From Robiginitomaculum sp. (GTDB taxonomy: Bacteria > Pseudomonadota > Alphaproteobacteria > Caulobacterales > Maricaulaceae): a DNA stretch of 40,733 bases. A program made the position numbers and the translations under genes. The stretch is from NCBI GenBank assembly GCA_023301505.1, contig JALZUP010000198.1:1-40733 (forward strand), read 5' to 3'. Positions 7,864 to 33,845 of the stretch are shown piece by piece. Below the pieces are notes generated by a model. That model ran no database searches. It was given only the letters and a program-made list of their open reading frames with translations, and was not told the DNA's origin. Each line of letters opens with the position of its first letter. Position 1 is the stretch's first letter.

Positions 7864-7935
7864 TGCTTAACCTTCGATATTCTATGTGACGTTCCTTTAC
7901 AACTGCCTTGTGCCGACCTGGCTGAAATAGTGAAC

Positions 7936-7950
7936 GCATATTGCGTGCCA
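7936..7950 (-). promoter_or_regulatory. Sigma-54 promoter of doxX pair (P1)
   Basis: Minus-strand sequence TTGGCACGCAATATGC matches the -24/-12 consensus (TTGGCACG-N4-TTGC) at all but one position, with GG and GC ten bases apart. It lies 72 bp before the doxX start codon. Confidence 0.8.
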
Positions 7951-8011
7951 ATATTTAATTTTCTACTGAGAGGCTAATCCCGTGATTCTTAAGGGAGCTG
8001 GGCATTCAAGG

Positions 8012-9026: not shown

Positions 9027-9081
9027 CGAAGCCCGCCTCAGCCCCCTCGTCCGACCGCACAAATTTTCCAAGGAGTCATCT

Positions 9082-12380: not shown

Positions 12381-12447
12381 TACGGTGTTCCTTTGATTTA
12401 AAAAGAATACGGGCGGTCACAGTTCAAAAGGGTCGAAGTAGTCAGTT

Positions 12448-12462
12448 GCATCTGCCGTGCCA
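12448..12462 (-). promoter_or_regulatory. Sigma-54 promoter of BON gene (P2)
   Basis: Minus-strand TTGGCACGGCAGATGC: GG and GC ten bases apart, one base from consensus. It sits 67 bp before the BON start and 66 bp from the nearest activator site. Confidence 0.8.
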
Positions 12463-12528
12463 AACCAAGTTTTCGATAGTGAATGACAAATTTTACGCAC
12501 CCATCCCTCCAAAACGCATTTTCGTGAT

Positions 12529-12566
12529 TGGTCTTCTGGCGACCAGCGATGGTCGCACGGCGACCA
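12529..12566. promoter_or_regulatory. Tandem palindromic activator sites, BON/HPt
   Basis: Site one is TGGTCTT-CTG-GCGACCA (12529-12545). Site two is TGGTCGC-ACG-GCGACCA (12550-12566), a perfect 7-bp palindrome with a 3-bp spacer. Their centres are 21 bp, two helical turns, apart. Such paired upstream sites are typical of NtrC-family activators. The right-facing promoter begins 100 bp away. Confidence 0.75.
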
Positions 12567-12665
12567 ACCTCGGCAAATTTGCTCAATTTAATTCCATGGC
12601 TTTGGAGAAAATCTATGGCGAGCAGTTCCTGTTTTATCGCTCTTCACGTTTGTTTTGCACAGGGT

Positions 12666-12680
12666 TGGCACACTAAATGC
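12666..12680 (+). promoter_or_regulatory. Sigma-54 promoter of HPt gene (P3)
   Basis: TTGGCACACTAAATGC: GG and GC spaced by ten bases, one base from consensus. The expected transcript start is near 12692, leaving a leader of about 70 bases before the HPt start. Confidence 0.8.
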
Positions 12681-12760
12681 AGTCGTAGACGCTCATTAAA
12701 TTAGCCATAGTTGCGTGGCCGTTGTCGCGATGGCGGCTCGATCCAGAAAGAACTGTCAAT

Positions 12761-13156
12761 ATGAAGCCGGATGAATCGAAGATGGACAAGTCACTTGCCG
12801 GAAAACGGTCCGGCAAGCAACTTGTTCTGGTCGAGTATGAGAAATCCTTACAGCGACTTGGAGGCGACAAAGAATTGTTCAGTGAGTTTGTCGACATCTT
12901 CATGGCGGACTCGCCAAAGATGATCGACGACATTTGTTCAGCTATTGAAACAGCAGATGCGTTAGCACTTGAGAAGTCGGCTCACGCACTCAAGGGGTTA
13001 ATGTCAAATTTCGGTGCAAAACCATGTTGCGACATGGCGCTGTCACTGGAGATCGCGGGGCGTGAGCAGATGTTGTCGGAGGTGGATGACCAATTGCCGA
13101 GGCTCCGCGAGTTGTATGCAGAACTGTGTTCGGAACTAGCCTCAATCTCTGGTTGA
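12761..13156 (+). CDS. Histidine phosphotransfer (HPt) protein
   Basis: 131 residues. The HPt signature is clear: EKSAHALKGLMSNFGA, with phospho-accepting His75 and the following Lys-Gly. The domain covers about residues 25-125 and is all helical. HPt proteins shuttle phosphate between receiver domains, for example from the receiver of a hybrid kinase to a response regulator. Two hybrid kinases (phytochrome, LOV kinase) and an NtrC-type regulator are encoded around it, which makes it a plausible common relay; this is inference. ATG at 12761 was chosen because it follows the sigma-54 leader; an in-frame TTG at 12722 and ATG at 12782 are possible. Neither start has a strong ribosome binding site. 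Confidence 0.88.
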   Translation: MKPDESKMDKSLAGKRSGKQLVLVEYEKSLQRLGGDKELFSEFVDIFMADSPKMIDDICSAIETADALALEKSAHALKGLMSNFGAKPCCDMALSLEIAGREQMLSEVDDQLPRLRELYAELCSELASISG

Positions 13157-13264: not shown

Positions 13265-13323
13265 CACGCTTTCGGTTCGGAGAACCGAGCGACATTGTCG
13301 CTCAGCTTTCCAAGCTGTTAGCG
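13265..13323 (+). repeat. Cloverleaf repeat, copy D (all stems perfect)
   Basis: The best copy. Outer stem ACGCT (13265-13269) pairs with AGCGT (13319-13323). Between them, hairpin 1 is GGTTC-GGA-GAACC (13273-13285), hairpin 2 is GAGCGAC-ATT-GTCGCTC (13286-13302) and hairpin 3 is AGCTT-TCC-AAGCT (13303-13315). The three hairpins touch with no linker; three bases (TTC and GTT) join each side to the outer stem. The flank AAACACGAAA after it is shared with copy E. Confidence 0.95.
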
Positions 13324-13449
13324 TAAACACGAAACTTTCCGTGCCCGCTCCTGAGGTGATGTGCTCTGGGGCCGGGGAAAACCTGCCACTTCCAAGCAAA
13401 AGACGAATTTATGAACTCAAGAAGTCTTTACGATGATGACACAATTGAT

Positions 13450-13509: not shown

Positions 13510-14967
13510 ATGCCGCGAATTTTAGCCATTGATGATGACCGCACCGTTTTGCGGTTGATCGAAAAAGCGTTTGAACAATCTGATGTAGAGCTCACCGCTG
13601 TAGCGACAGCCGAAGAGGGGCTGCCACTGTTGGTGGACGGTAAGGTAGACGTATGTTTGCTGGACATCATGCTGCCGGAAATGAGCGGGCTGGAGCTCGC
13701 GCGGAAGATTCGTTCGATTGATGCCCGCCTGCCAGTCATCTTTATCACGTCCATGGACGACAGCGATACCGCGATCGAAGCGATGAAGTTGGGGGCTTAC
13801 GAGTTCTGTACTAAACCGCTGGACATTCGACAGGTCCAAGACTTCGTTGAACGTGCCTTTAATACGCGCCGGTTGATGCGGTCGCCGGTGACGTTCGGTG
13901 ATAGCGGTGAATTGCCGTTGGGCGGCGGGGACCAACTGGTCGGCAAAAGCCCAAGAATGGTCGAAGTCTACAAGCAGATCGGACGCGTCGCTGCCCAAAA
14001 AGTTCCTGTACTGATTCGCGGCGAAAGCGGAACGGGAAAAGAGTTGATCGCCCGAGCGATCTACCAGCACAGCCAACGTGATCAAGAGTGTTATCTTGCG
14101 GTCAACTGCGCAGCGTTGTCAGAGACGCTTTTGGAAAGTGAATTGTTCGGCCACGAGAAAGGTGCTTTCACAGGGGCAGAGCGTCGGCATGTCGGCAAAT
14201 TCGAACAGTGTAGCCAAGGGACAATTTTCCTTGATGAGATCGGCGATATGTCGCCGTTGCTTCAGAGTAAGGTACTGCGTCTGCTCCAAGAGCAGAAGTT
14301 TGAACGCGTTGGTGGAACGAAAACAATCGACACTGACGCGCGAATCGTTTCGGCTACGAACCGAAACCTTGAGCAGATGATCGAAGAGAACGAGTACCGC
14401 CTCGATCTTTTCCATCGCATCAACGCCTTTGAGATTCATTTGCCGCCTTTGCGCGAGCGGGGTGGTGATGTTGATTTGCTGACCAGCTTCTTCATTCGAA
14501 AGTTTGCCCGACAGCTAGGTAAAAAAGTCGAAGGGATTTCGCCCGAAGCAGTCAAACTGTTGCACAACTACGATTGGCCGGGAAACGTGCGCGAGCTTCA
14601 AAGCGTTATTCGCCGTTCTTTGCTAATGGCAACTGGCCCTGTCATTGTGCCTGAGAATATTAACGCCGAGCTACACAGGCATGACGGGGCTAAAGAAGGT
14701 GTTGCCGTCGTCGGCTCAACTTTTAGTGACATTAGTGTTGATTCGTTCGTGCAAAGTCGTATCGACGAGGGTTCCAGTGGCATTTACGCCGAATCGTTGG
14801 AGATGATGGAGCGGAAGTTGCTGACCAAAATTCTTGTTCACACCTCCGGAAATCAATCACAAGCCGCAGAATTGCTTGGGATCACCCGTGGCAGTCTTCG
14901 GACCAAGATCCGGTCGCTTGGCATCGTGATCGAACAAGTTGTTTCTGCAGACCAAATCGGGGGGTGA
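13510..14967 (+). CDS. NtrC-family sigma-54-dependent response regulator
   Basis: 485 residues in the classical order. The receiver (about 1-120) has the acidic pocket Asp8-Asp9-Asp10, phospho-acceptor Asp52 (LLDIMLPEMSG) and KPLD. The AAA+ domain (about 140-375) has Walker A GESGTGKE (about residue 171), the sigma-54-contacting loop GAFTGA (218-223) and Walker B IFLDEIGD. The C-terminal Fis-type helix-turn-helix is NQSQAAELLGITRGSLRTKI (near 450-475). It hydrolyses ATP to open sigma-54 promoters. The start at ATG 13510 follows AGGGAGG; a longer frame from 13411 is rejected. It lies in the same island as five sigma-54 promoters and their shared palindromes, so it is the prime candidate to bind these. 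That binding is inference. Confidence 0.95.
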   Translation: MPRILAIDDDRTVLRLIEKAFEQSDVELTAVATAEEGLPLLVDGKVDVCLLDIMLPEMSGLELARKIRSIDARLPVIFITSMDDSDTAIEAMKLGAYEFCTKPLDIRQVQDFVERAFNTRRLMRSPVTFGDSGELPLGGGDQLVGKSPRMVEVYKQIGRVAAQKVPVLIRGESGTGKELIARAIYQHSQRDQECYLAVNCAALSETLLESELFGHEKGAFTGAERRHVGKFEQCSQGTIFLDEIGDMSPLLQSKVLRLLQEQKFERVGGTKTIDTDARIVSATNRNLEQMIEENEYRLDLFHRINAFEIHLPPLRERGGDVDLLTSFFIRKFARQLGKKVEGISPEAVKLLHNYDWPGNVRELQSVIRRSLLMATGPVIVPENINAELHRHDGAKEGVAVVGSTFSDISVDSFVQSRIDEGSSGIYAESLEMMERKLLTKILVHTSGNQSQAAELLGITRGSLRTKIRSLGIVIEQVVSADQIGG

Positions 14968-15381
14968 TTCCGCTTCTTGGTTCCCTGCAGCAAAAGCTTG
15001 TTGGACTTCCAAGCTGACGGCTGAAACGCAGGTTTAATCCGTTCAAAGTAGCGGGTTGGGTTCACTAAGAAGAGGGCACGCAGTAACTTTCGTGTTTGCG
15101 CCACCAGCTTGGAAAGCTGAGCGACAATGTCGCTCGGTTCTCCGAACCGTCAGCGTGAGTTGCCAAGGTGCTTGAAATCATTAGAGCCGTGTCCGAATCG
15201 GGAATCTGTTCAGGACAGTTCCCAAGGTCCGGCCCAAAATCCACACTTAATTACGACTGGAGGGTGGTTTTTTCAGTGTTTGCGGACTGAAATGTAAAAA
15301 AAGCAGATAGGCTGTAAGCATGGCCGTTTTGGCGAGTATTCAGTAACAGAACAAGCATTTTCTCAAGCTGGAGTGACGAAC
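14968..15381. other. Intergenic region with cloverleaf copy E
   Basis: 414 bp between the activator gene and the hibernation factor gene. It holds cloverleaf copy E (15098-15156) with its conserved flank box (15188-15204). No sigma-54 motif is found before the hibernation factor gene. Confidence 0.6.
15098..15156 (-). repeat. Cloverleaf repeat, copy E
   Basis: 59 bp, inverted relative to copies A-D. All three hairpins are perfect. The outer stem ACGCT/GGCGC keeps three Watson-Crick pairs and one G-T pair. Flanks AAACACGAAA on one side and a TCCCGATTCGGACACGG box (15188-15204) on the other are shared with copies D and F respectively. Confidence 0.93.
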
Positions 15382-15745: not shown

Positions 15746-15784
15746 GGGCAGGCCAGGAACTGCAAAGAATGAAGTTCCTAGTTT

Positions 15785-15843
15785 GCGCTATCAGCTTGGA
15801 AAGCTGAGCGACAATGTCGCTCGGTTCTCCGAACCGTAAGCGT
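15785..15843 (-). repeat. Cloverleaf repeat, copy F
   Basis: 59 bp, same orientation as copy E. All three hairpins are perfect; the outer stem ACGCT/AGCGC has four pairs. It has the shared AAAC flank and, at 15908-15926, the box TTTCCGATTTGGACACGGG. Confidence 0.93.
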
Positions 15844-15960
15844 GAACTACCAAAAGTCTATAAGTTAAAAAAATCCATAAGCCCAAGGATTTCCAAGAGT
15901 TCTCTTACCCGTGTCCAAATCGGAAACCAGTTCCGGGCCAGCAACTAAGAAAAACATTTG

Positions 15961-21590: not shown

Positions 21591-21821
21591 TTAAGCCAGT
21601 TGGCAATCTAACTGTTTGTGCGATTGAGCAAAAGGAATGCTTGGAGCGACATCTTCAAACTCACTGACGACCTCAACAAGCTCCCCGCGAAGAATGCGGA
21701 CTGACTCCGAGGCCTTAACGCCTAACCGAACACCATTACCTTTGACCTTAAGAACTTCAACACTGATACCGAGTTCAGGAAATTCGATTGTTTGATTGGC
21801 TTTGCGTGAAAGAACTAGCAT
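21591..21821 (-). CDS. csrA: Carbon storage regulator CsrA
   Basis: 76 residues with the full CsrA pattern: MLVLSRKANQTI at the start, strands with VEVLKVKGNGVRLGV, and the RNA-binding region ESVRILRGEL. CsrA dimers bind GGA motifs in mRNA leaders and alter translation or stability, controlling carbon storage, motility and biofilm. The true start is the ATG at 21821, which gives the canonical N-terminus and follows GGAAGG; a longer frame starting TTG at 21845 is rejected. The C-terminal tail after about residue 55 is species-specific. A strong sigma-54 promoter lies 70 bp upstream (21892-21906), back to back with that of a small secreted peptide. Confidence 0.95.
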   Translation of the reverse strand: MLVLSRKANQTIEFPELGISVEVLKVKGNGVRLGVKASESVRILRGELVEVVSEFEDVAPSIPFAQSHKQLDCQLA

Positions 21822-21891
21822 TGGGGGATACCTTCCATGATTCAAATTGACTAACGCGAGCGGTTTCGCTCTAGGGTTGTCATCGAAGTAA

Positions 21892-21906
21892 GCAAGTAGG
21901 GTGCCA
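21892..21906 (-). promoter_or_regulatory. Sigma-54 promoter of csrA (P4)
   Basis: Minus-strand TTGGCACCCTACTTGC, nearly identical to the divergent promoter P5 (one base differs over 16) and carrying the canonical TTGC -12 element. Confidence 0.88.
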
Positions 21907-22024
21907 AACCTAGCTAACCCTTAAATTACGATCGCCTAAATCTTGAATCTTCAACGATTCGCCGGTTTTTCTTCATCCTGCCAAACAAAAACATGAGTCG
22001 GCTGCTAGCGAAAGTGATGCGGTT

Positions 22025-22165
22025 TGATCGTGCGGCAACCATAAAAAGAATCAGATTGGTCAGACTACGTTCAGCCAACGACTGGTGGTCGCTTGCCAAC
22101 CATCGCGGTCGCCCAGCTCTCTTGAATGAACTTGAGAACTTTCTAAAGTGGTCGCCGCGCGACCA
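22025..22165. promoter_or_regulatory. Three activator sites with exact 62-bp period
   Basis: TGATCGT-GCG-GCAACCA (22025-22041), TGGTCGC-TTG-CCAACCA (22087-22103) and TGGTCGC-CGC-GCGACCA (22149-22165). Relative to the consensus TGGTCGC-N3-GCGACCA they match 11, 12 and 14 of 14 positions. The centres are at 22033, 22095 and 22157, that is 62 bp (about six helical turns) apart, putting all three on one face of the DNA. The outer sites lie 118 and 97 bp from the two promoters. Confidence 0.75.
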
Positions 22166-22262
22166 TCGCATTCACTGGGCCAATTTCGTCTTCGTATGGG
22201 TAGGCGTCAAAAGACTCGGTGAATCGCGGCGGATTCGAAATCTAACTGCTCCTGCAAAGGTT

Positions 22263-22277
22263 TGGCACACTACTTGC
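22263..22277 (+). promoter_or_regulatory. Sigma-54 promoter of the secreted peptide gene (P5)
   Basis: TTGGCACACTACTTGC with GG-N10-GC spacing. The expected start is near 22288, giving a leader of about 48 bases that ends in TAGGAG before the peptide ATG. Confidence 0.88.
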
Positions 22278-22335
22278 TTCGGGGGGCACTGTCTCAAACC
22301 CCGGTTCAGTCAAGATTCATATCTAGGAGAAACTT

Positions 22336-22461
22336 ATGCGTTCTCTTTTGATGGTGTTGGTTTTGTTTTCAGCGACCTGTGTTGCGCAAGATGAGCTCTC
22401 AACCGGAAGAGAACCTCAAACGAACGGGCATGATGTGGCCAGAGGTCAACACAAAAGGTAA
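22336..22461 (+). CDS. Small secreted peptide, 41 aa
   Basis: A short gene with a strong ribosome binding site (AGGAG, six bases before the ATG) and a convincing signal peptide: MRS, a hydrophobic core LLMVLVLFSATC and a small-residue cleavage region VAQ near residue 17-18. The predicted mature part is about 23 residues, hydrophilic, and ends in HKR. No family is recognised. It sits directly behind a sigma-54 promoter and shares its control region with csrA, so it is probably highly induced under the condition sensed by the activator. It may be a signalling peptide, an envelope micropeptide or a degraded gene; the clean start region argues for a real gene. If Cys15 were a lipobox cysteine a lipoprotein would be possible, but the context (ATC) is poor. 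Confidence 0.6.
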   Translation: MRSLLMVLVLFSATCVAQDELSTGREPQTNGHDVARGQHKR

Positions 22462-22601: not shown

Positions 22602-25244
22602 ATGACCATTGAAACTGAACGAATATCAACTCTCAAAAGCGATTGGCGAGTCTGGGGTCCTTACCTAAGTGAGCGGCAATGGGGCACCGTGCGAGAGGAC
22701 TACAGCGAACATGGCGAGGCTTGGGAGTTTCTCGATCACGAAGCGTCCCGCAAGCAAGCTTATCGCTGGGGCGAGGACGGAATCGGTGGGTACAGTGACG
22801 ATCAACAGCGACTCTGTTTTTCGTTGGGAATGTGGAATGGTAAAGATGCAATTCTCAAAGAGCGTCTGTTCGGATTGACCGGCAACGAAGGCAATCACGG
22901 AGAAGACGTCAAAGAACATTACTACTATCTCGACGGCACGCCGAGCCATTCCTATTTGAAGATGCTCTATAAGTATCCTCAAAGTGAGTACCCTTATGCT
23001 GATCTAGCGAACACCAATCGCTCGGCAGGCAAGGACGAAGACGAATATGAATTGCTGGACACGGGTGTCTTCGATGACGATCGGTACTTTGATGTCTTCA
23101 TTGAGTATGTCAAGGCTTCCGAGTTTGACACCTTGATTCGCATCACGGTGTTTAACCGTGGGCCGGAGGCGGCTGACCTCGATTTGCTGGCGAATCTTTT
23201 GTTTCGCAATACATGGAGCTGGGGACACGGCGATGGAGTCAAGCCAAGCCTCAGCCTGCAGGGTCACGGCCACGTTATGGCGGAGCACGAAAAGTTGGGC
23301 TCTTATTGCTTCTGCTCTCGCACAGACGCCGAGTTTTTATTTACTGAAAACGAAACCAACCCCGAGATGTTTGGAATGGAGTCGGCTGGCTTCCACAAAG
23401 ACGCCTTTCATGCGTACGTGGTCAATGGCGATGTGAAGGCAATTAACCCAGACAAGACGGGCACCAAATGCGCCGCGCGTTTGAAGGCTTCGATTGGTGC
23501 AGGCGACTCAATGTCGTTTGACTTGCGACTGTTCCGCGACGATGGAGTCGTTCAAAAACCCTTCGAAGGTTTCGACGAACTCTTTGACAACGGCAAGTCC
23601 GATGCGAACGAGTACTTTGCTGAGTTGCAAAAAGACATTGAAGGCGAAGATCAACGCAACGTACAACGACAAGCCATCGCCGGCTTGATTTGGACGAAGC
23701 AGTTTTATAACTTCGACATTTCGCAGTGGTTGAAGGGCGATCCGAATCAGCCAACACCGCCAGCTTCGAGACGTTCCGGTCGCAACCACGAATGGGATCA
23801 CCTCAACAACGCGGACATCATTTCGATGCCTGACAAATGGGAGTACCCGTGGTACGCGGCTTGGGATCTCGCGTTTCATTGCGTTCCGTTTGCGATGTTC
23901 GATCCGGTGTTCGCCAAAGAACAATTGGTGCTGATGACGCGTGAGTGGTACATGCATCCCAACGGCCAAATCCCGGCTTACGAATGGGCGTTCGGCGACG
24001 TGAACCCACCCGTTCACGCTTGGGCGACTTGGCGTGTCTATCAGATTGAACAAGAGAAGCACGGAAAAGCCGATCGTGATTTCCTCGAAACTGTCTTTCA
24101 CAAACTGCTGTTGAATTTCACTTGGTGGGTCAACCAAAAAGATGAAGACAATAGGAATGTTTTCCAAGGTGGATTCCTCGGCCTCGACAACATCGGAGTT
24201 TTTGACCGAAGTGCACCGCTTCCTAGTGGTGGGCATATTGATCAGTCCGACGGAACCAGTTGGATGGCGATGTATTCGTTGAACATGCTTCGAATCGCGT
24301 TGGAGCTGGCGATCGAAAACCCGGTCTACGAAAGCATCGCGACGAAATTCTTTGAACACTTTCTACATATCGCTGAAGCATTGAACGATCTTGGTGGCGA
24401 TGGTGAGGGACTGTGGGACGAAGAGGATCAGTTTTACTACGACTCACTGCACCTACCGACAGGCAAAACAATTCCGCTCAAAGTCAGGTCGTTGGTTGGG
24501 CTCGCGCCGCTATTTGCTGTCGAAACGCTGGATGAGGAACTACTTAACAAGGTGCCAAACTTCAAGCGTCGGATGGAATGGTTTCTAAAGAACCGTCCAG
24601 ATCTTGCGAGTCTTGTCTCGCGATGGCATGAACCGGGTGAAGGGGATACTCACTTGCTGTCGCTATTGCGAGGGCATCGAATGAAAGCTCTGTTACGTCG
24701 AATGCTGGACGAGACCGAGTTCCTTTCAGATTTTGGAATTCGAGCTGTCTCGAAATACCACGAAGAGAATCCGTACGCTGTGAATTGTGACGGGAGCATG
24801 ATTGATTGCGATGGCGGCCAGGTCGCGGTTAAATACGAACCCGCTGAATCGACGACTTCGATGTTCGGTGGCAATTCAAATTGGCGTGGCCCGATTTGGT
24901 TCCCAATGAATTTTCTGTTGGTCGAGTCGATGAAGAAGTTCCATTCGTACTACGGTGACGAATTCAAAATCGAATGCCCAACCGGATCTGGCCAAAAGAA
25001 GACAATCTCACAGGCTGCTGATGAGGTCGCTCAACGTTTGACTTCCATCTTTACGAACAACGAGGCTGGCCACCGTCCGGTGTTTAACAAGTATCCAAAG
25101 ATGCAAAACAACGAGCACTTCAAAGATCACATTCTTTTCTACGAGTACTTTCACGGCGACAACGGCCGCGGCGTGGGTGCCAGTCATCAAACCGGCTGGA
25201 CAGCTCTTGTTGCTTCACTGATCGCTGATAAGGCCAAGAAATAA
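22602..25244 (+). CDS. GH63-like (MGH1-type) glucosidase
   Basis: 880 residues, no signal peptide, so cytoplasmic. The N-terminus (about 15-60, WGPYLSERQWGTVREDYS...AYRWGEDGIGG) and the C-terminal (alpha/alpha)6-barrel segments (WDHLNNADIISMPDKWEYPW, AAWDLAFHCVPF with Asp422, and NWRGPIWFPMNFLLVES) match bacterial members of glycoside hydrolase family 63, which includes glucosylglycerate/mannosylglycerate hydrolases and alpha-glucosidases. Asp422 in the WD motif is a likely catalytic acid by family comparison. The substrate may be a compatible solute or an oligosaccharide with terminal alpha-glucose. It is first in a run of same-strand carbohydrate genes (glucosidase, dehydrogenase, debranching enzyme, aquaporin, oxidoreductase). 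The ATG at 22602 has no strong ribosome binding site. Confidence 0.88.
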   Translation: MTIETERISTLKSDWRVWGPYLSERQWGTVREDYSEHGEAWEFLDHEASRKQAYRWGEDGIGGYSDDQQRLCFSLGMWNGKDAILKERLFGLTGNEGNHGEDVKEHYYYLDGTPSHSYLKMLYKYPQSEYPYADLANTNRSAGKDEDEYELLDTGVFDDDRYFDVFIEYVKASEFDTLIRITVFNRGPEAADLDLLANLLFRNTWSWGHGDGVKPSLSLQGHGHVMAEHEKLGSYCFCSRTDAEFLFTENETNPEMFGMESAGFHKDAFHAYVVNGDVKAINPDKTGTKCAARLKASIGAGDSMSFDLRLFRDDGVVQKPFEGFDELFDNGKSDANEYFAELQKDIEGEDQRNVQRQAIAGLIWTKQFYNFDISQWLKGDPNQPTPPASRRSGRNHEWDHLNNADIISMPDKWEYPWYAAWDLAFHCVPFAMFDPVFAKEQLVLMTREWYMHPNGQIPAYEWAFGDVNPPVHAWATWRVYQIEQEKHGKADRDFLETVFHKLLLNFTWWVNQKDEDNRNVFQGGFLGLDNIGVFDRSAPLPSGGHIDQSDGTSWMAMYSLNMLRIALELAIENPVYESIATKFFEHFLHIAEALNDLGGDGEGLWDEEDQFYYDSLHLPTGKTIPLKVRSLVGLAPLFAVETLDEELLNKVPNFKRRMEWFLKNRPDLASLVSRWHEPGEGDTHLLSLLRGHRMKALLRRMLDETEFLSDFGIRAVSKYHEENPYAVNCDGSMIDCDGGQVAVKYEPAESTTSMFGGNSNWRGPIWFPMNFLLVESMKKFHSYYGDEFKIECPTGSGQKKTISQAADEVAQRLTSIFTNNEAGHRPVFNKYPKMQNNEHFKDHILFYEYFHGDNGRGVGASHQTGWTALVASLIADKAKK

Positions 25245-25292
25245 GACAACAAAGGTGGCATCGGCTTCCAGCCTGTGGTCGCAGCAATTCCA

Positions 25293-25316
25293 ACAGAGGC
25301 TGCCTATGCCGCCTCT
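25293..25316 (+). terminator. Possible terminator after the glucosidase gene
   Basis: CAGAGGC and GCCTCTG form a 7-bp stem with a 10-base loop, 50 bp after the stop codon. Only a weak T run (TCGTTTG) follows, so it may be a terminator or an attenuating hairpin. Confidence 0.4.
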
Positions 25317-25388
25317 GTCGTTTGAGCAGGTATTGGAATTAGCCAATTGGGCTTAAACAACACACCAAAAAACAAAAACGGATAAATC

Positions 25389-26237
25389 ATGAGTCAACCA
25401 AACCATCCCGACGTCGTCATGCCAACTTGCGGCATTCCTCAATTGCTAAAAGGCCAGAAAGCGCTCGTCACCGGCTCCAGCTCGGGGATCGGCACGGCCG
25501 TTGCGATTTCACTCGCCCAAGCCGGAGCCGAAGTCGTAATCAACTACGCCGGCAACGAGAAATCAGCAATTGAAGTCGTTGATCAAATCAAGAAAAACGG
25601 CGGCAATGCGATTGCAGTTCAAGCTGACGTTTCAAAAGAAGATGACGTCGAACGCATGTTTGCTACAGCCATCGAAGCCTTTGGCACGGTCGACATTCTG
25701 GTCAACAACGCCGGCCTTCAAAAAGACGCTCCGATTGATGAGATGAGCCTCGAAGATTGGAGCAAAGTAATTGATGTTAATCTGACTGGCCAGTTTTTGT
25801 GCGCACGAGCGGCGGTTCGAGAGTTCAAAAAGCGTGGAGTCGTTGCTGATGTTTCTTGCTCGGCCGGCAAAATCATTTGCATGAGCTCCGTCCACGAAGT
25901 CATTCCTTGGGCTGGCCATATCAATTACGCGGCATCCAAAGGTGGCGTGATGTTGATGATGAAAAGTATCGCTCAAGAAGTCGCTCCATTTCGGATTCGA
26001 GTCAACAGTATTTGCCCGGGCGCCATTCGCACGCCGATCAACCGCGACGCGTGGGAAACGCAAGAAGCCTACGACAGTTTGATGAACTTGATTCCTTACA
26101 AGCGTATCGGCGAACCCGCTGACATTGGTAAAGCGGCAGCTTGGCTGGCTTCGGATCAAGCCGACTACGTTAACGGAACAAGCATGGTGATTGATGGAGG
26201 CATGTGTCTGTATCCGGGATTCACAACTGGAGGATAA
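25389..26237 (+). CDS. SDR-family dehydrogenase (glucose 1-dehydrogenase-like)
   Basis: 282 residues of classical short-chain dehydrogenase. The NAD(P)-binding motif TGSSSGIG is at residues 28-35, NNAG at about 105, catalytic Ser at 166-167 (CMSSVHE) and YAASK at Tyr180-Lys184. C-terminal VNGTSMVIDGG is typical of glucose 1-dehydrogenases, which oxidise beta-D-glucose to gluconolactone with NAD(P). The neighbour upstream could release the glucose. About 20 residues longer at the N-terminus than the usual 260, as in stress-protein-like subgroups (YhxC/GsiB-type). A hairpin at 25293-25316 (CAGAGGC/GCCTCTG) separates it from the glucosidase gene. Confidence 0.9.
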   Translation: MSQPNHPDVVMPTCGIPQLLKGQKALVTGSSSGIGTAVAISLAQAGAEVVINYAGNEKSAIEVVDQIKKNGGNAIAVQADVSKEDDVERMFATAIEAFGTVDILVNNAGLQKDAPIDEMSLEDWSKVIDVNLTGQFLCARAAVREFKKRGVVADVSCSAGKIICMSSVHEVIPWAGHINYAASKGGVMLMMKSIAQEVAPFRIRVNSICPGAIRTPINRDAWETQEAYDSLMNLIPYKRIGEPADIGKAAAWLASDQADYVNGTSMVIDGGMCLYPGFTTGG

Positions 26238-26355
26238 GTTTGGTTTCTAGCACCGTCTTTAGGCGGAATGAACTGCCTCTGATTTCCGCCATTACGGCCC
26301 ATGCCGGTACTACGAACACTTACTGGTCGTCTTCAACTTTTTTACGCGATGTACA

Positions 26356-28296
26356 ATGAAACAAATACCCGAAACTGAGAATGAGTGGCTCGAAACCGAC
26401 GGCTTTGGCGCCTTCGCCAGCGGCACGTCTTCGGGAGTTCGCACTCGCCGATACCATAACGTATTGATGGTCGCCAAGAATCCTCCTTCCGAGCGAGTGA
26501 TTCTGGTCAACGGTTTTGACGCTTGGGTGGAAACCCCGCACGGCACGCTCCCCATTTCAACTCAGGCCTATCAAAACAATTCCTTTTGGCCGGAAGGTTT
26601 CTTACTCAACCACTCTTTCGCCAGTTCACCGTGGCCAACATGGATTTACGATCTCGGCGAATCGTTACAGATCAAGCAAGAACTATTTGTGCCAGACGGG
26701 ATTCAAGGCACCGTGATTCGTTGGCAGGTGATTGGTTCTGCGCAAGGCGTGAAGCTGCATGTAAAACCGTTTTTGTCTGCTCGTGACTATCACTCGATGC
26801 ATCATGAAAACGATGACATAAACCTAGAAACGCAAAAGCAAAACGGCGAATTGATTTGGAAACCTTATTCTGATTCGCCAGACATTTTCGCCGAATCGAC
26901 TGGCGAGTTCGAAAGTAAACCAGAATGGTTTCGATCGTTTCACTACGAAAAGGAAGCTCAACGCGGACTCGATACGATGGAAGACCTCGGCTGTCCGGGC
27001 GAATTCCACTTCGAACTTGACAAGTCCGAAGCGATTTTGCTGTTGGGAGCCGACCAAAGACTTTCGAGCCAAATCAACTCGGCTGGTTCACCCGCCGAAC
27101 GCGTATTCGAAATCGTACATAACGCTGAACTTGAGCGTCGGCAGCAAATCACCGGTGTCGAACGTTCTGCACAGCAGTACATCGTTAAACGGGACGGTGG
27201 GAAAACGATCATCGCCGGTTATCCATGGTTCACTGATTGGGGCCGGGATACGTTCATTGCGATTCGAGGACTTTGCCTCGCACGCGAGGATCACGAAACG
27301 GCGAAGAGCATCTTGGTCAGTTGGGCCGATACGGTTTCCGAGGGCATGATTCCTAACCGATTTCCTGATCACGGCGAAGAACCAGAATACAATTCGGTAG
27401 ATGCTTCTCTGTGGTATATCATCGCCGTTTATGAGTACTGGCAGTTGCTTGACCGGCTTGAGGTCGTGAAAGACGCGGCCGAAACAAGCAAGCTCGAAAC
27501 CGCCATCGAAGCGATCCTTGAAGGATACTCAAACGGCACGCGTCACGGCATCGGCAAAGACGAAGACGGGTTGATCGCCGCGGGCGAGGAAGGCGTACAG
27601 CTAACTTGGATGGACGCCAAAGTCGGTGACTGGGTCGTCACCCCGCGAATCGGAAAACCTGTTGAAATTCAGTGCATGTGGATCAATGCGTTGTGGATCG
27701 CCGCGAAATTTTCGCCCGGTTGGAAACCGCATCTTGAAAGGGCTGAGCAGTCGTTCAAGGAGAAATTCTGGAACGCAGAAGCGTCCTGCCTTTACGACAT
27801 CGTGGATGAAAACCATGAAGCCGGTCGCAATGACGCTTCGATTCGCCCCAATCAGATCATGGCCGTTGGTGGTTTGCCTTATTCCGTTGTCGACGGCGAG
27901 CAAGCGAAAGCGATTCTTGCGACGGTTGAGAGCAAGTTGCTGACTCCTTTAGGGCTGCGATCATTAGCGCCGGACGATCCGGACTACAAAGCAATCTATT
28001 CGGGTGGTGTTTTGGAACGTGACGGAGCCTACCACCAAGGCACTGTTTGGCCGTGGCTGATCGGGCCTTTCGTGGAAGCTTGGTTCAACGTCAATGGCAG
28101 GATCAAGGAAACAGCCGACGAAGCGAAGACCCGCTTTCTTTATCCGTTTGAGGCTCACTTGGAAACATCTGGATTAGGTCACATCTCAGAAATTTCGGAC
28201 GCGAGTTCGCCGTACACACCCCGTGGCTGTCCGTTTCAAGCGTGGTCGCTGTCGGAGTTTATTCGTGTTCAAAAGTTGATCGAGGAATTGCTGTGA
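26356..28296 (+). CDS. Glycogen debranching enzyme (amylo-alpha-1,6-glucosidase)
   Basis: 646 residues. The N-terminal domain carries the typical start of the bacterial/archaeal family: EWLETDGFGAFASGTSSG, then RTRRYHNVLMVA (about 10-40). The C-terminal (alpha/alpha)6 catalytic domain (from about 265) has GYPWFTDWGRDTFIAIRG, followed by GMIPNRFPDHG, YNSVDASLWYI and TVWPWLIGPF. The enzyme hydrolyses alpha-1,6 branches of glycogen or limit dextrins in the cytoplasm. With glgC downstream it points to glycogen cycling; CsrA, encoded close by, regulates glycogen genes in other bacteria. It is followed after 19 bp by the aquaporin gene, so the two are probably co-transcribed. Confidence 0.92.
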   Translation: MKQIPETENEWLETDGFGAFASGTSSGVRTRRYHNVLMVAKNPPSERVILVNGFDAWVETPHGTLPISTQAYQNNSFWPEGFLLNHSFASSPWPTWIYDLGESLQIKQELFVPDGIQGTVIRWQVIGSAQGVKLHVKPFLSARDYHSMHHENDDINLETQKQNGELIWKPYSDSPDIFAESTGEFESKPEWFRSFHYEKEAQRGLDTMEDLGCPGEFHFELDKSEAILLLGADQRLSSQINSAGSPAERVFEIVHNAELERRQQITGVERSAQQYIVKRDGGKTIIAGYPWFTDWGRDTFIAIRGLCLAREDHETAKSILVSWADTVSEGMIPNRFPDHGEEPEYNSVDASLWYIIAVYEYWQLLDRLEVVKDAAETSKLETAIEAILEGYSNGTRHGIGKDEDGLIAAGEEGVQLTWMDAKVGDWVVTPRIGKPVEIQCMWINALWIAAKFSPGWKPHLERAEQSFKEKFWNAEASCLYDIVDENHEAGRNDASIRPNQIMAVGGLPYSVVDGEQAKAILATVESKLLTPLGLRSLAPDDPDYKAIYSGGVLERDGAYHQGTVWPWLIGPFVEAWFNVNGRIKETADEAKTRFLYPFEAHLETSGLGHISEISDASSPYTPRGCPFQAWSLSEFIRVQKLIEELL

Positions 28297-28315
28297 ATTC
28301 TGCACGGAACGCAAG

Positions 28316-29152
28316 ATGATAAATGCATTACGCAAACACTGGCCCGAATACCTGATGGAAGCATGGGGACTTGGGACGTTCATGGTCATCGCCTGCGTCG
28401 GCACCGCCGTGCTGTGGCATCCCGATTCACCTGTAGAGCACTGGGTAGGCGAAAGTCCCTATATCCAACGCCTGCTAATGGGGGTTGCGATGGGATTGAC
28501 CGCGATTGGCATTGTCTATTCTCCGTGGGGGAAGCGCTCGGGTGCCCATATCAATCCAGTGTTGACTCTGACATTTTTGCGGCTTGGAAAAGTCGCGCCT
28601 TGGGACGCATTGTTTTACGTCATCTTTCAATTCATCGGCGCAATCGCCGGTGTTGCGATTTCTTGGCTGTTGCTGGGCAGCGTGATCTCGATACCACAAG
28701 TCAACTTCGCCATAACGATTCCAGGTAGCGCCGGTGTTTGGACTGCTTTCGTGGCAGAGACCCTGATTTCCGCCAGCATCATGGGCACCGTTTTGTTTAC
28801 AACCAACAAACCAAAAATAATGCACTTCACTGGGGTGATAATCGGCTGCCTGATCGTGATTTACATCACCTTCGAAGCACCCATGTCTGGGATGAGCATG
28901 AATCCAGCTCGAACCGTTGGCTCGGCTGTGATCGCTAACGAGTGGGCGGGGTGGTGGCTTTACTTTTTGGCGCCGCCGATCGGGATGCTCGCGGCTGCTG
29001 AAATTTACTTGTGGACCAAAGGCAAGGATGCAATCCACTGCGCAAAACTTCATCACACGCTCGATGTTCGTTGCATATTCTGCGGATATGAACCCGAAAT
29101 GATGAACTCAGGAAAAAATACAGAAGTTCAAAAAACGATTCAACTCAAATAA
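28316..29152 (+). CDS. Aquaporin / MIP-family channel
   Basis: 278 residues with six hydrophobic helices and the two half-helix pore motifs of the major intrinsic protein family: first motif Asn80-Pro-Val (HINPVLT) and second Asn196-Pro-Ala followed by Arg199 (MNPART). NPV in place of NPA in the first loop is a known but uncommon variant. It carries water or small polyols across the inner membrane. A cytoplasmic C-terminal tail of about 35 residues contains CIFCGYE, which looks like a half zinc-finger. Neighbours handle sugars and the next gene, 14 bp away, encodes an oxidoreductase, so a substrate such as glycerol is possible. Confidence 0.9.
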   Translation: MINALRKHWPEYLMEAWGLGTFMVIACVGTAVLWHPDSPVEHWVGESPYIQRLLMGVAMGLTAIGIVYSPWGKRSGAHINPVLTLTFLRLGKVAPWDALFYVIFQFIGAIAGVAISWLLLGSVISIPQVNFAITIPGSAGVWTAFVAETLISASIMGTVLFTTNKPKIMHFTGVIIGCLIVIYITFEAPMSGMSMNPARTVGSAVIANEWAGWWLYFLAPPIGMLAAAEIYLWTKGKDAIHCAKLHHTLDVRCIFCGYEPEMMNSGKNTEVQKTIQLK

Positions 29153-29166
29153 GAACGGAATATCAG

Positions 29167-30714
29167 ATGCTTAAAAAACACTACGACGTGATCATCATCG
29201 GCACGGGAGCCGGCGGTGGAACCCTTGTCCGTAAACTCGCCGAATCAGGCAAGCAGATTCTTTTGGTTGAACGCGGTGAGTTTCTCAAACGCGAAAAGGA
29301 AAACTGGGATGCCGATGAAGTCTTCAACAAGGAACGATATCACTCAAAAGATACGTGGTATGACAAAGACGACAAACCATTCCAACCGGGATCGCATTAC
29401 TTTGTTGGCGGTGCGACTAAAATGTACGGCGCAGCACTGTTTCGTTTTCGTGAACGAGATTTTGACGAGGTGCAACACGAAGACGGCATTTCCCCAGAAT
29501 GGCCTCTGAAGTACGACACATTTGAGAAGTACTATTGCGACGCCGAAGAGATGTACATGGTGCACGGCAACCGCGATGAAGACCCAACCGAGCCGCCATC
29601 GAGTCGTCCTTATCCTTTCCCAGCCGTCTCGCACGAACCGCGGATTCAGGAACTTTCCGACAAGCTAAAGGCTGAAGGGTTGCATCCCGCCCATGCTCCA
29701 ACGGCGATCATGCTCAATGAAGAAAACCACCTGAAGAGCCGCTGTATTCGCTGCGATACTTGCGACGGCTACCCGTGCCTGGTTCACGCGAAATGCGATG
29801 CTGAAGTGATCGCAGTTCGTCCGGCGCTCAAGTACGACAACGTTTCACTGGTCACTGGCGCGATGGTAACCAAGCTAGTCACCAACGCAGAGGGAACCTC
29901 CGTCACCGAAGTCGTCGTTCAACACGAAGACCACACGCATTCGCTCAAGGGGGACATTATCGTGTTGTCGGCCGGTGCGGCTAACTCGGCCAAGATCTTG
30001 CTTGCATCAGCAAACGAGAAACATCCCAACGGGCTGGCCAACGGCTCGGATCAGGTGGGACGCAACTACATGTTCCACAACAGCCAAGCCGTAGTTGCAC
30101 TTTCCAAAAAAATCAATGCGACCAAGTTCCAGAAAACGATGACCATCAACGATTTCTATTGGGGTTGGAAGGACTACGAATATCCGATCGGCAACATCCA
30201 AATGCTCGGTAAGTCGATGGCGCCAATGTTTGCCAATGATGCTCCCAGTTTCGCACCGGGTTGGACGTTGGAAATGATGGCAAAGCATGCCGTTGATTTT
30301 TGGCTGACAACCGAGGACTGGCCTGATCCAGAGAACCGAGTCACGCTGAGCGAAGATGGAAACATCAAACTTGCTTACACCTTCAACAATCAGAAATCGA
30401 CAAAGCAACTGACCAAGCATTTCAAGAAAATGCTGGAGTGTATGGACTGCCATATCCACTTGATTCCGAACAGCATATATCTGACCAAGAAGATTCCACT
30501 CGATGGAGTTGGCCATCAAGCCGGCACTTGCCGATTCGGAACCGATCCATCGACTTCGGTTCTTGATTTGAATTGCAAAGCCCACGAAGTCGACAACCTG
30601 TACGTGGTCGACTCCAGTTTCTTCCCCAGCATCGCAGCAGTGAATCCGTCATTGACGATCATGGCCAATGCGTTGCGTGTGGGTGATCATTTGCTCGAAC
30701 GAATGGGGGCTTAA
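29167..30714 (+). CDS. GMC-family FAD oxidoreductase
   Basis: 515 residues. The FAD-binding fold is at the N-terminus (DVIIIGTGAGGGTLVRKLAE, then LLVERGE). The GMC C-terminal signature has His450 (GHQAGTCRFG) and Asn493 (AAVNPSLTIMANALR), the usual His/Asn pair near the flavin. Substrates of the family are alcohols, sugars or polyols. A central Cys cluster (CIRCDTCDGYPC, then one more Cys) is visible near residue 195; this resembles Cys-rich motifs in gluconate and fructose dehydrogenase-type GMC proteins. There is no signal peptide. Its stop is followed after one base by the next gene's ATG, a tight operon with the VOC protein. Confidence 0.9.
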   Translation: MLKKHYDVIIIGTGAGGGTLVRKLAESGKQILLVERGEFLKREKENWDADEVFNKERYHSKDTWYDKDDKPFQPGSHYFVGGATKMYGAALFRFRERDFDEVQHEDGISPEWPLKYDTFEKYYCDAEEMYMVHGNRDEDPTEPPSSRPYPFPAVSHEPRIQELSDKLKAEGLHPAHAPTAIMLNEENHLKSRCIRCDTCDGYPCLVHAKCDAEVIAVRPALKYDNVSLVTGAMVTKLVTNAEGTSVTEVVVQHEDHTHSLKGDIIVLSAGAANSAKILLASANEKHPNGLANGSDQVGRNYMFHNSQAVVALSKKINATKFQKTMTINDFYWGWKDYEYPIGNIQMLGKSMAPMFANDAPSFAPGWTLEMMAKHAVDFWLTTEDWPDPENRVTLSEDGNIKLAYTFNNQKSTKQLTKHFKKMLECMDCHIHLIPNSIYLTKKIPLDGVGHQAGTCRFGTDPSTSVLDLNCKAHEVDNLYVVDSSFFPSIAAVNPSLTIMANALRVGDHLLERMGA

Positions 30715-30715
30715 G

Positions 30716-31801
30716 ATGGGCGGAAAGGCATCTTTTTTTGCAAGCGTCATCATTGCGGTTGCGACATCTTGCTTTGGGCTTTCGTATTTTGGAAGCCAGC
30801 AAGAAGCTGAGACGGTCGACAAGTCTAATTCGGTTGCAGTTTCCGAGATCGCAGGCATCAAAGTCAAAGAAGTTGATTCAGTTGGCTTGACGGTTCACGA
30901 CATGGACGCGGAACTCAAGTTTTTCACAAAAGTCTTGCCATTCAAGCAGGTTTCCGACGAAGAGGTCGTTGGAGACGACTTTGAAGAATTGTTCGGCGTT
31001 TTTGGTTGTCGGGCGCGAGTCGTACGTTTACAGCTTGGCAATGAGTTCATTTCGCTAACGCAGTTCCTCGCTCCTCGCGGTCGTCCGATCCCGGTCGATT
31101 CGAAAAGCAATGACGGTTGGTTTCAGCATGTCGCGATCGTCGTTTCCGACATGGAAGACGCTTACGCTCACCTGCGGAAACACAACGTCGAACACGCTTC
31201 GACGGGCCCTCAAACGTTGCCCGATTGGAATCCAAACGCAGGCGGCATCAAGGCGTTTTACTTCAAGGATCCAGAAGGTCACGTGCTGGAAATCATTTGG
31301 TTTCCTGATGGCAAAGGGAATCCAAAATGGCAAGGGCAGAAGGATTTGTTCCTTGGCATCGACCACACTGCGATCGCCGTCAGTGACACAGAGGAGGCGC
31401 TAAAGTTCTATCGCGACTTTCTCGGGATGACCGTTGCCGGAGAGAGTGAAAACTATGGCCCCGAACAAGAGCGGCTTAACAACGTGTTTGGTGCTCGACT
31501 GCAGATCACTGGCTTGAAAGCCGAAACAGGGCCGGGAATCGAGTTGCTTGAATACCTCGCTCCGAGCAACGGATTGCCGTACCCTGTTTCAACGAACATG
31601 AACGACCTGTGGAGTTGGCGGACTCGTTTGGTGGTCGACTCGGCCGACGATGCGATGCGAGCCGCGAAAGCCTCGAGCGTCGATTTTGTTTCCCCCGGTT
31701 CGGTCGACATTGTCGATGACGAAATCGGGATTGATCGAGGCGTTACCGTGTCTGGGCCGTTCGGACATCGAATGATTTTGGTCGAGGAGGCCACAAAATG
31801 A
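30716..31801 (+). CDS. Exported two-domain VOC (glyoxalase-like) protein
   Basis: 361 residues. I chose ATG 30716, one base after the oxidoreductase stop, because GGGGG precedes it and the protein then begins with a signal-like stretch (FFASVIIAVATSCFGLSYFG); a longer frame from 30668 lies inside the previous gene. Two tandem vicinal-oxygen-chelate domains follow: about 55-190 (VGLTVHDMDAELKFFTKVLPF ... FKDPEGHVLEI) and about 210-355 (DHTAIAVSDTEEALKFYRDFLGM ... MILVEE). VOC proteins bind a metal and act on diverse substrates such as glyoxal adducts or dioxygenase substrates. Metal-ligand positions include His (DHTAIAV) and Glu (HVLEI). Function within the oxidoreductase operon is unknown. 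Confidence 0.85.
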   Translation: MGGKASFFASVIIAVATSCFGLSYFGSQQEAETVDKSNSVAVSEIAGIKVKEVDSVGLTVHDMDAELKFFTKVLPFKQVSDEEVVGDDFEELFGVFGCRARVVRLQLGNEFISLTQFLAPRGRPIPVDSKSNDGWFQHVAIVVSDMEDAYAHLRKHNVEHASTGPQTLPDWNPNAGGIKAFYFKDPEGHVLEIIWFPDGKGNPKWQGQKDLFLGIDHTAIAVSDTEEALKFYRDFLGMTVAGESENYGPEQERLNNVFGARLQITGLKAETGPGIELLEYLAPSNGLPYPVSTNMNDLWSWRTRLVVDSADDAMRAAKASSVDFVSPGSVDIVDDEIGIDRGVTVSGPFGHRMILVEEATK

Positions 31802-31885
31802 TCGGGCTGCCGCAAACAGATCCGTCCTTTAACGCCACCCAATTCACAAACTCGTAAAATTCAAAACCTATTAAGAAGAAACCAA

Positions 31886-32347
31886 ATGAATAAACTTCAA
31901 CAGACGACCGACAAGGCATTTCCCATCGCTCCCCGATTGATCGCTGGTGGAATCTTGACTTTCTTTAGTCTCAAGCACTTCAGTGACCCGCAGCATTTTG
32001 CCAACATATTGACCGGCGCTGGTTTTCCTATGGTGGAGCTAAACGTTTGGGCAGCGTCTGCCACCGAGTTGATCGCGGGCCTATTGCTGTTGTCTGGGTT
32101 CTTGACGCGCATAGGCGGCGTGCTGGGAATTGGCGTGATGGTGCCCGCAGTGATCGCAACGCTGACGATCGCTGGCTTAGATCCCGAAAACTTGCCGGGC
32201 GGCCTGACCGAAGTACCGTTCGTGCCTCCACTACCTCTGCCAATCCTTACGACGGTGACTTCATTGATCGCATTGGTCTTAGGTGGAGGGAAATTCAGCG
32301 TTGATAAGATGATGGCGGCAAAGAAAAGTGACGATTCTCTTCAATAG
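31886..32347 (+). CDS. DoxX-family membrane protein
   Basis: 153 residues with four hydrophobic helices and the DoxX layout (LIAGGILTFFSLKHFSDPQ; FPMVELNVWAASATELIAGLLLL; then IGGVLGIGVMVPAVIATL). It belongs to a different subgroup from the pair at 6.7-7.9 kb, with little sequence similarity. It is 84 bp after the VOC gene on the same strand, with an AAGAAG-type ribosome binding site, so it may belong to the oxidoreductase operon. Family members are often placed next to oxidoreductases or thioredoxin-like proteins. Confidence 0.85.
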   Translation: MNKLQQTTDKAFPIAPRLIAGGILTFFSLKHFSDPQHFANILTGAGFPMVELNVWAASATELIAGLLLLSGFLTRIGGVLGIGVMVPAVIATLTIAGLDPENLPGGLTEVPFVPPLPLPILTTVTSLIALVLGGGKFSVDKMMAAKKSDDSLQ

Positions 32348-32633
32348 TAAAGGGGTGCCTTTAGGAAAAGCTAACGGCATTTAGGAGACATCTCGTTGAA
32401 CACCGCCTTTTTTTGAACTGTCGATTAGCGCTGTGTTTTTAGTCGCTGAAATGTCGACGGCGAAAGGACGCTAATAAACACGAATGTTAATGCAGGTTTT
32501 TGCTTTTGATATGTCATTTAATTTCCGCAGCCCACACACGGCAGCGGAGTTTGGCTTTTAGCGCTGAACGTGCCTGTAAAGTCGAATGTCGGTGTCTGGT
32601 TTTATTTTAATTGATCGAAGGTTTGGGTAGTTC

Positions 32634-33845
32634 ATGTCACGAGTCACAACCGTACTTCTAGCTGGTGGCAAGGGCTCACGCCTAGAGCCGCTAACGGAGA
32701 ACGACGCAAAGCCTGCGATTCCATTTGGCGGTGTTTATCGAATCATTGACTTCACCTTGTCGAATTGCGTTAACAGTGGATTACGTCGAGTATTCGTATT
32801 GACTCAATTCAAGTCGATGAGCCTGGAACGGCACATTAACAAAACATGGCGTCCAATGGTCAACTGGCAAACTGGCGAATTCATCGAGCCAGTTCCTGCG
32901 CAACAGCGGCTTGGCGACCACTGGTATCTTGGTAATGCCGATGCGGTCTACCAAAACGTTTATGCGTTGGAGAAAGACAATCCAGACCACGTCGTTGTTC
33001 TTGCTGGCGATCATGTCTACAAGATGGATTATCAGCAAATGCTCGACCAGCACATTGCCAAGAAAGCGGCGGTGACGGTTGCTGGACTGCCCGTTCCCGT
33101 CGCCACTGCTGCGAACCAATTTGGCGTGATGCAGATCAATGAGCAATCTCAGATTATAAGTTTTGATGAAAAACCTGATTCGCCACGTCCACTGCCTAAC
33201 GATCCAGAAATTTGCTTAGCTTCGATGGGGATCTACATTTTTGAAGCGGACTTTCTGTTTGACCAACTATGCAAGAGTGCGATACGGGACGGCACGCGAC
33301 ATGATTTCGGGCGTGACATTATTCCCGCAAGTATTGAAACGAAGCGGGCCTTTGTCTACCAATTCCGCGATCCTGAAACATCGAAACCGGGCTACTGGCG
33401 TGACGTCGGGACGCTTGATTCGTACTACGAAGCCAACATGGAATTACTCGGTAGTGAATCTGGAATCGGTCTTGAAAAGACTACGTGGCCCATCTGGCGC
33501 GAGGGTACCAATCGCAGTCCAGCAAGGATTTTTTCGGGTTCACAAGGCAGTGCACCAGCAACCTCTGGCAGTATGATTTCTGCTGGCTGTACCGTTCACG
33601 GTTCCGTCGTACAGTCTGTTCTGGGGATCGGATGTTTCATCGAAGAGGGAGCAACGGTCGAAAACTGCGTTTTACATAGTGGAGTTCGAGTTGAGGCAGG
33701 GGCGATCATGCGCAACACCATCGTCACACAAGATCTTGTGATCCCCAAAGGTTGTCGCATCGGATTTGATCGCGATGCTGACTTGGTGCACGGTGCGACA
33801 ATCACCAAAATGGGAAGACTAGTTCTTTCAGAGCCGATAAAATGA
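32634..33845 (+). CDS. glgC: Glucose-1-phosphate adenylyltransferase (ADP-glucose pyrophosphorylase)
   Basis: 403 residues. N-terminal nucleotidyltransferase domain: LLAGGKGSRLEPLT, KPAIPFGG and IIDFTLSNCVNSG, then VVLAGDHVYKMDY with the metal-binding Asp, and FDEKP (Lys binding glucose-1-phosphate). GYWRDVGTLDSY (about 260) is diagnostic for GlgC. The C-terminal left-handed beta-helix (VQSVLGIGCFIEEGATVENCVL) completes the enzyme. It makes ADP-glucose for glycogen synthesis from ATP and glucose-1-phosphate. Together with the debranching enzyme in the same region it supports glycogen turnover. The 286-bp upstream region contains two imperfect direct copies of a T-rich motif starting CGAATGT, at about 32482 and 32585. 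Confidence 0.95.
   Translation: MSRVTTVLLAGGKGSRLEPLTENDAKPAIPFGGVYRIIDFTLSNCVNSGLRRVFVLTQFKSMSLERHINKTWRPMVNWQTGEFIEPVPAQQRLGDHWYLGNADAVYQNVYALEKDNPDHVVVLAGDHVYKMDYQQMLDQHIAKKAAVTVAGLPVPVATAANQFGVMQINEQSQIISFDEKPDSPRPLPNDPEICLASMGIYIFEADFLFDQLCKSAIRDGTRHDFGRDIIPASIETKRAFVYQFRDPETSKPGYWRDVGTLDSYYEANMELLGSESGIGLEKTTWPIWREGTNRSPARIFSGSQGSAPATSGSMISAGCTVHGSVVQSVLGIGCFIEEGATVENCVLHSGVRVEAGAIMRNTIVTQDLVIPKGCRIGFDRDADLVHGATITKMGRLVLSEPIK

Follow-up and report, generated by a model that had tools for sequence, protein, structure and literature searches.

Twin sigma-54-type promoters and candidate activator sites appear to place csrA in a general-stress-like regulon on an apparently planctomycete contig

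The window, that is the whole 40,733-nucleotide stretch of DNA analysed here, is contig C198 (JALZUP010000198.1), one of the 474 contigs of a metagenome-assembled genome (MAG) assigned to Robiginitomaculum sp. (GCA_023301505.1). Near its middle a short csrA gene and a 41-codon ORF point away from each other, and the DNA between them carries two back-to-back sigma-54-type promoters with three candidate activator-site palindromes (Table 1). The csrA product belongs to the CsrA/RsmA family by its CsrA domain (Pfam), and the start that matches the family is the ATG at 21821 as opposed to an upstream TTG. Palindromes of the same type recur between a second divergent pair of sigma-54-type promoters, 12447(-)/12665(+), which separates a BON gene from the genes for an Hpt protein and an NtrC-type activator.

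Table 1. Coordinates of features in the window (strand left empty for features without one)
Feature	Position	Strand	Evidence or remark
Sigma-54-like site	7935..7951	-	Score 14.2; 72 bp before DoxX/MauE-like gene (7360-7863)
Sigma-54-type promoter of BON gene (12090-12380)	12447..12463	-	Zero-mismatch match; Pfam BON
Candidate activator-site palindrome	12529..12545		2 mismatches
Candidate activator-site palindrome	12550..12566		Perfect
Sigma-54-type promoter before Hpt and activator gene	12665..12681	+	Zero-mismatch match
Hpt phosphotransfer protein	12761..13156	+	Pfam Hpt, E 3.6e-10; 53-55% identical in close clade
NtrC-type sigma-54 activator, proposed for palindrome array	13510..14967	+	Response_reg, Sigma54_activat, HTH_8 (Pfam)
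REP-like copies	2510-2595, 4629-4703, 8053-8136, 13258-13350, 15072-15166, 15772-15854	both	Imperfect palindrome
csrA, 76 aa, ATG start 21821	21591..21821	-	Pfam CsrA, E 6.6e-15; orthologues 53-69% identical
csrA sigma-54-type promoter (TTGGCACCCTACTTGCT; core TTGGCACCCTACTTGC, 21892-21907)	21891..21907	-	Zero-mismatch match, top window score, kept in 8/8 orthologues
GCTAGC element	22004..22009		~100 bp upstream of csrA promoter; single copy in window
Candidate activator-site palindrome 1 (TGATCGTGCGGCAACCA)	22025..22041		3 mismatches to TGGTCGC-N3-GCGACCA
Candidate activator-site palindrome 2 (TGGTCGCTTGCCAACCA)	22086..22102		2 mismatches to TGGTCGC-N3-GCGACCA
Candidate activator-site palindrome 3 (TGGTCGCCGCGCGACCA)	22149..22165		Perfect, 0 mismatches to TGGTCGC-N3-GCGACCA
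Right-facing sigma-54-type promoter (TTGGCACACTACTTGCT; core TTGGCACACTACTTGC, 22262-22277)	22262..22278	+	Zero-mismatch match, joint top window score
41-codon ORF, signal-peptide-like start, AGGAG Shine-Dalgarno	22336..22461	+	First SD-ATG after promoter; unconserved
Possible co-transcribed series	22602..33845	+	ORF layout, Pfam; co-transcription inferred

The window is apparently a planctomycete contig that was wrongly binned into an alphaproteobacterial MAG. We base this on the lack of any csrA match in all 60 of the searched relatives of the assigned genome, by which the mis-binning was recognised, on the poor correlation of tetranucleotide profiles between the sampled MAG contigs (C450 excepted) and the window, and on the window's activator, which is 78-82% identical to proteins of large genomes reached via a Phycisphaerae record. 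Genes judged by eye to look alphaproteobacterial occur on another contig of the same MAG and in its genus. The exceptional contig, C450 (L103), has a tetranucleotide correlation of 0.82 with the window and is the sole similar one among those sampled. Searches for phage contigs and plasmids gave no match. An rpoN gene does occur on contig C93 of the assigned MAG, but because the window's contig is mis-binned this gene is irrelevant to it; for the same reason, looking for rpoN in the genome, which an earlier reading of the sequence alone (the sequence-only reading) had put forward as a check, would mislead. Among seven close planctomycete genomes, rpoN was found in five, and the two without it are fragmented.

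The sequence-only reading had described twin back-to-back sigma-54 promoters, and both were found at its positions with the correct -24 GG / -12 GC spacing and with predicted transcript starts (~21880 and ~22289) that agree with those it gave. At 15.0 of a possible 15.7, these are the two best sigma-54 scores on either strand of the 40-kb window, and 20 mononucleotide shuffles yielded no site scoring at least 15. Only five genes in the window (DoxX-like, BON, Hpt, csrA and the 41-codon ORF) have a site scoring at least 14 within 250 bp of their starts, all at -73 to -95, and 2.1% of random positions have a comparable site (at least 14). The near-identity claimed for the two promoters also held, as they form a 22-bp inverted repeat (21890-21911 / 22258-22279) that is 95% complementary with one mismatch. 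Since the match extends past the sigma-54 core and includes the spacer, it suggests that one promoter arose from the other by inverted duplication, with the csrA promoter as the source, in this lineage. For a wider comparison we used the window and seven loci (L186-L192) with a short csrA of 73-84 aa, picked among many csrA paralogues. The element TTGGC-N7-TTG[CT] was present on the correct strand at -81 to -129 from csrA in all eight, and on the opposite strand in none (0.006 expected per region). This -24/-12 element in 8/8 orthologues supports csrA as a predicted sigma-54 target. In two relatives (G576 and G586) it is instead a DUF2383 gene that diverges from csrA, and this gene has a sigma-54 site of its own.

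The three palindromes are likewise present between the promoters, but not with the exact 62-bp centre spacing first described: the centres lie at 22033, 22094 and 22157, or 61 and 63 bp apart. The sequence type TGGTCGC-N3-GCGACCA was borne out for one perfect 17-bp copy, with 3 and 2 mismatches in the others. Because the intervals correspond to 5.8 and 6.0 turns at 10.5 bp per turn, the supposed common helical face is approximate. Nor is the period conserved, as spacings of 33 bp in L190 and L192 and of 21 bp at the window's second site indicate. Palindrome 1, which matches 11 of the 12 positions of TGRTCG-N5-CGAYCA, lies 118 bp from the csrA promoter, palindrome 2 lies 179 bp from that promoter and 160 bp from the right-facing one, and palindrome 3 lies 97 bp from the right-facing one. 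Palindromes of this type were also found upstream of csrA in L190 (TGGACGACCGGCGACCA, TGGTTGTTATGCGACCA), L192 (TGATCGACCAGCGATCA, TGGTCTTAGAGCAACCA), L188 and L189, with a weaker one in L186. About 5/8 csrA orthologues have clear palindromes.

The case for a secreted peptide as a meaningful co-regulated product of the right-facing promoter is weak. Although the 41-codon ORF has a good Shine-Dalgarno and an N-terminus that looks signal-like by eye, it matched no Pfam family, and neither a convincing homologue at the loci examined nor a counterpart beside csrA in the seven orthologous loci was found, whereas a secreted signalling micropeptide would be a conserved small ORF with a signal peptide. 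The ORF may just happen to come first on a transcript that enters a carbohydrate/stress gene cluster. The downstream series encodes an MGH1-like glycoside hydrolase (GH), an SDR, a glycogen-debranching-type GH, an aquaporin-type MIP, a GMC oxidoreductase, a glyoxalase-like protein, a DoxX protein and a glgC-like protein, and no sigma-54 site of its own was found for any of these genes. We also considered whether the right-facing transcript is a decoy RNA that sequesters CsrA and so opposes the product of the left-facing gene, an idea suggested by the back-to-back layout and the unconserved peptide. We rejected it as very improbable, since its 314 nt hold 4 GGA (3.9 expected) and 1 ANGGA, and the window gave no Rfam match. 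Within the downstream series, the MGH1-like GH/SDR/GH/MIP/GMC cluster (22602-30714) has acidobacterial, betaproteobacterial and Phycisphaerae homologues at 63-64% identity, compared to just ~55% in close planctomycete relatives. That the distant homologues are the closer ones suggests horizontal transfer of the cluster, and the ~55% in close relatives makes the MGH1-like gene unusable as a synteny anchor.

The gene at 13510-14967 encodes a receiver domain, an AAA+ domain with GAFTGA and a Fis-type HTH, the makeup of an NtrC-type activator. Orthologues are 78-82% identical in close genomes and 53-63% in further ones; GAFTGA is conserved in the alignment and the recognition helix in most orthologues. 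Of 28 genomes, three have a close orthologue (78-82%), namely G562, G576 and G586, and it is in these that the csrA palindromes are clearest or that a bona fide palindrome occurs. We propose this protein as the best candidate for binding the palindromes, and the recurrence of the palindrome around activator orthologues gives good in silico support to the earlier suggestion of one NtrC-type activator for both promoters. A distinctly unlikely alternative is that the sigma-54 promoters are real but that another NtrC-family activator acts at csrA through GCTAGC, leaving the palindromes secondary or relevant to the right-facing promoter only. In 8/8 csrA orthologues, more than have clear palindromes, GCTAGC precedes the sigma-54 promoter by 100-125 bp (0.011 expected per 100 bp). 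Further, four genomes (G568, G577, G579 and G581) keep the csrA promoter without an activator orthologue at E<=1e-150, so another activator could act; G581 does have activator fragments near csrA, and many other sigma-54 activators are encoded in these planctomycete genomes. Against this, 6 bp is short for the site of a Fis-type dimer, GCTAGC is absent from the window's other sigma-54 promoters, and it is the palindromes that go with sigma-54 sites in the activator's vicinity.

We then counted the operator motif TGRTCG-N5-CGAYCA at 40-200 bp from sigma-54 sites, in loci most of which were picked because they contain the activator or csrA. Over 208 kb of the close clade (the window, G562, G576 and G586), it stood upstream of 16 of 46 sites and downstream of none, compared to 0.07 on average for scrambled motifs. 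In another 20 genomes, whose activator orthologues are about 54-63% identical, the operator was upstream of 22/46 sites and again downstream of 0/46 (scrambled motifs, 0-6). A repressor or a nucleoid protein with no connection to sigma-54 could instead be what binds the palindromes, whose upstream place would then be a by-product of intergenic location, given that intergenic DNA carries palindromes and sigma-54 sites alike. We consider this improbable in view of the orientation asymmetry (38/92 upstream, 0/92 downstream) and of distances that cluster at ~50-180 bp, typical for enhancer sites. The same asymmetry, together with the conservation in 8/8 orthologues, makes it hardly credible that two promoter-like and three palindrome-like strings arose by chance without function, even with evidence that is in silico throughout.

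Genome-wide in G562, G576 and G586, operators with at most 1 mismatch numbered 299 compared to 116 in a reversed control. When 60 such operators were drawn from these lists, a sample less selected than the loci above, just 4 lay in range of a sigma-54-like site; part of the excess is therefore probably due to composition, and we did not count it as proof. Three of the four stand before genes for a DUF1328 protein, an Hva1_TUDOR protein and an uncharacterised protein of 354 aa. A strict operator-plus-promoter pattern searched family-wide was discarded as support, with 7 matches hardly above the control's 4. Given this near-control result and the 4/60 sample, the operator is meaningful jointly with a promoter and not by itself. 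The link of the activator to the sigma-54-like site at 7935-7951 is uncertain because the nearest palindrome (8333-8349, 1 mismatch) is ~380 bp off. The gene behind that site is the upstream one of two tandem paralogous DoxX/MauE-like genes (6660-7863), which are 71% identical over 244 nt.

The first genes after operator-bearing sites include those for Pmp3, DUF1328, DUF2383, Dps-like ferritin, PRC, BON, DUF1269 and Hva1_TUDOR proteins, as well as those for a formate/nitrite-type transporter, a hybrid kinase and Hpt; in G586 an activator paralogue is among them. In L172, L174 and L181 (by Pfam for L181), sigma-54 sites also accompany CsbD genes close to the activator. CsbD, Dps, BON, PRC, Pmp3 and DUF1328 are stress-associated families, and we take the list to resemble a general stress regulon. 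In silico, several conserved stress-gene families share a predicted control, at loci chosen mainly for lying near the activator, and csrA seems to belong to this sigma-54/NtrC-type, general-stress-like regulon. Near the activator, as in G214 and G586, lies a heme oxygenase gene followed by one for a bacteriophytochrome with an HWE kinase and a receiver (8439-11643). A 1756-aa CheB-CheR-PAS-histidine kinase-receiver protein is encoded at 15958-21228; orthologues at 63-64% identity lie near csrA in G576 and G586 (~5 kb away in L227 and L230). These two kinases are candidate inputs. Control could also be as we describe but serve a narrower response, such as to light/redox, nutrients or osmotic conditions, given that stress-type families are common in many regulons and that the bacteriophytochrome kinase with its heme oxygenase and the PAS-rich CheB/CheR kinase adjoin the activator. 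We find this somewhat unlikely for a target set as broad as Pmp3, DUF1328, DUF2383, Dps-like, PRC, BON, DUF1269 and Hva1_TUDOR.

Our preferred model, to which we assign a probability of roughly two in three on sequence evidence, treats the region as a sigma-54 control region that is enhancer-dependent and works in both directions; through it the 13510-14967 activator would govern csrA and a stress-like regulon. A phosphorelay of hybrid kinase, Hpt and receiver would activate this protein, which would bind the 17-bp operators ~90-180 bp upstream of both promoters; ATP-driven remodelling, probably with DNA looping to the sigma-54 polymerase, would then fire both. The outputs would be csrA to the left and, to the right, a transcript that begins with the small unconserved ORF and probably runs on into the carbohydrate/stress series, the two being induced together by a stress signal. 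The same activator and operator would also control the BON, PRC, Pmp3, DUF1328, DUF2383, Dps-like ferritin, DUF1269 and Hva1_TUDOR genes and the signalling genes themselves. With csrA and the stress set under one activator, stress signalling would be linked through CsrA to control at the post-transcriptional level. Sigma-54 promoters strictly require activated enhancer-binding proteins, and for that reason a stress response of this kind would be switched by one phosphorelay and not by sigma-factor competition. A tentative extension, which we hold at a little under even odds, is that the planctomycete general stress response as a whole is run by sigma-54 together with a single NtrC-type activator fed by a phosphorelay, that this pair takes the role of a dedicated sigma-70-family stress factor, and that CsrA forms the built-in post-transcriptional arm.

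NtrC and ZraR share the REC-AAA+-HTH architecture with GAFTGA and bind 17-bp dyad operators upstream of -24/-12 promoters, but their operators have another sequence and their targets are others than those proposed here, which would include csrA and stress-type genes. The general stress responses under sigma-B, RpoS and EcfG involve overlapping families (CsbD, Dps, BON, PRC, Pmp3, DUF1328) but use a dedicated sigma-70-family switch, where we propose a sigma-54 activator. PMC4014564 likewise puts a sigma-54 activator atop a global adaptive response, in the Borrelia Rrp2-RpoN-RpoS pathway; its output there is a second sigma factor, whereas the planctomycete output would be stress genes directly and CsrA. 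Sigma-54 regulons have been predicted for Pirellula sp. strain 1 (Studholme and Dixon 2004, as relayed in PMC12316311) and for planctomycetes (Carrera-Reyna et al. 2025, PMC12316311). This work, as in the window, has csrA after a predicted sigma-54 promoter and REC-AAA-Fis activators with sigma-54 promoters in Planctomycetota. Because this literature, as represented in PMC12316311, reports it, sigma-54 control of planctomycete csrA is already a known prediction. The text of PMC12316311 does not mention an operator, palindromes, CsbD, PRC-barrel, DUF1328, Dps, YqaE or 'general stress'. In the non-subscription literature searched, we did not find the operator, the activator assignment, the stress gene set or the twin arrangement, nor, in the literature searched, an account of how the planctomycete general stress response is organised. 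The operator, activator assignment and stress regulon therefore appear new, and with its operator defined, its activator named and its targets recurring in more than 20 genomes, the proposed regulon becomes testable, with CsrA inside it.

Two further observations concern csrA paralogues and repeats. Planctomycete csrA paralogues of ~250-320 aa (L106, L193, L111, L116, L122, L194-L206, L208, L209, L211-L215 and others) have a CsrA domain and, after it, a conserved H-x-LRN-x-LN segment; the two that were tested both continue with a Response_reg receiver domain, making a two-component-controlled CsrA possible. Finally, a REP-like imperfect palindromic element with the core GAGCGACAWTGTCGCTC occurs in the window in six intergenic copies and in both orientations.
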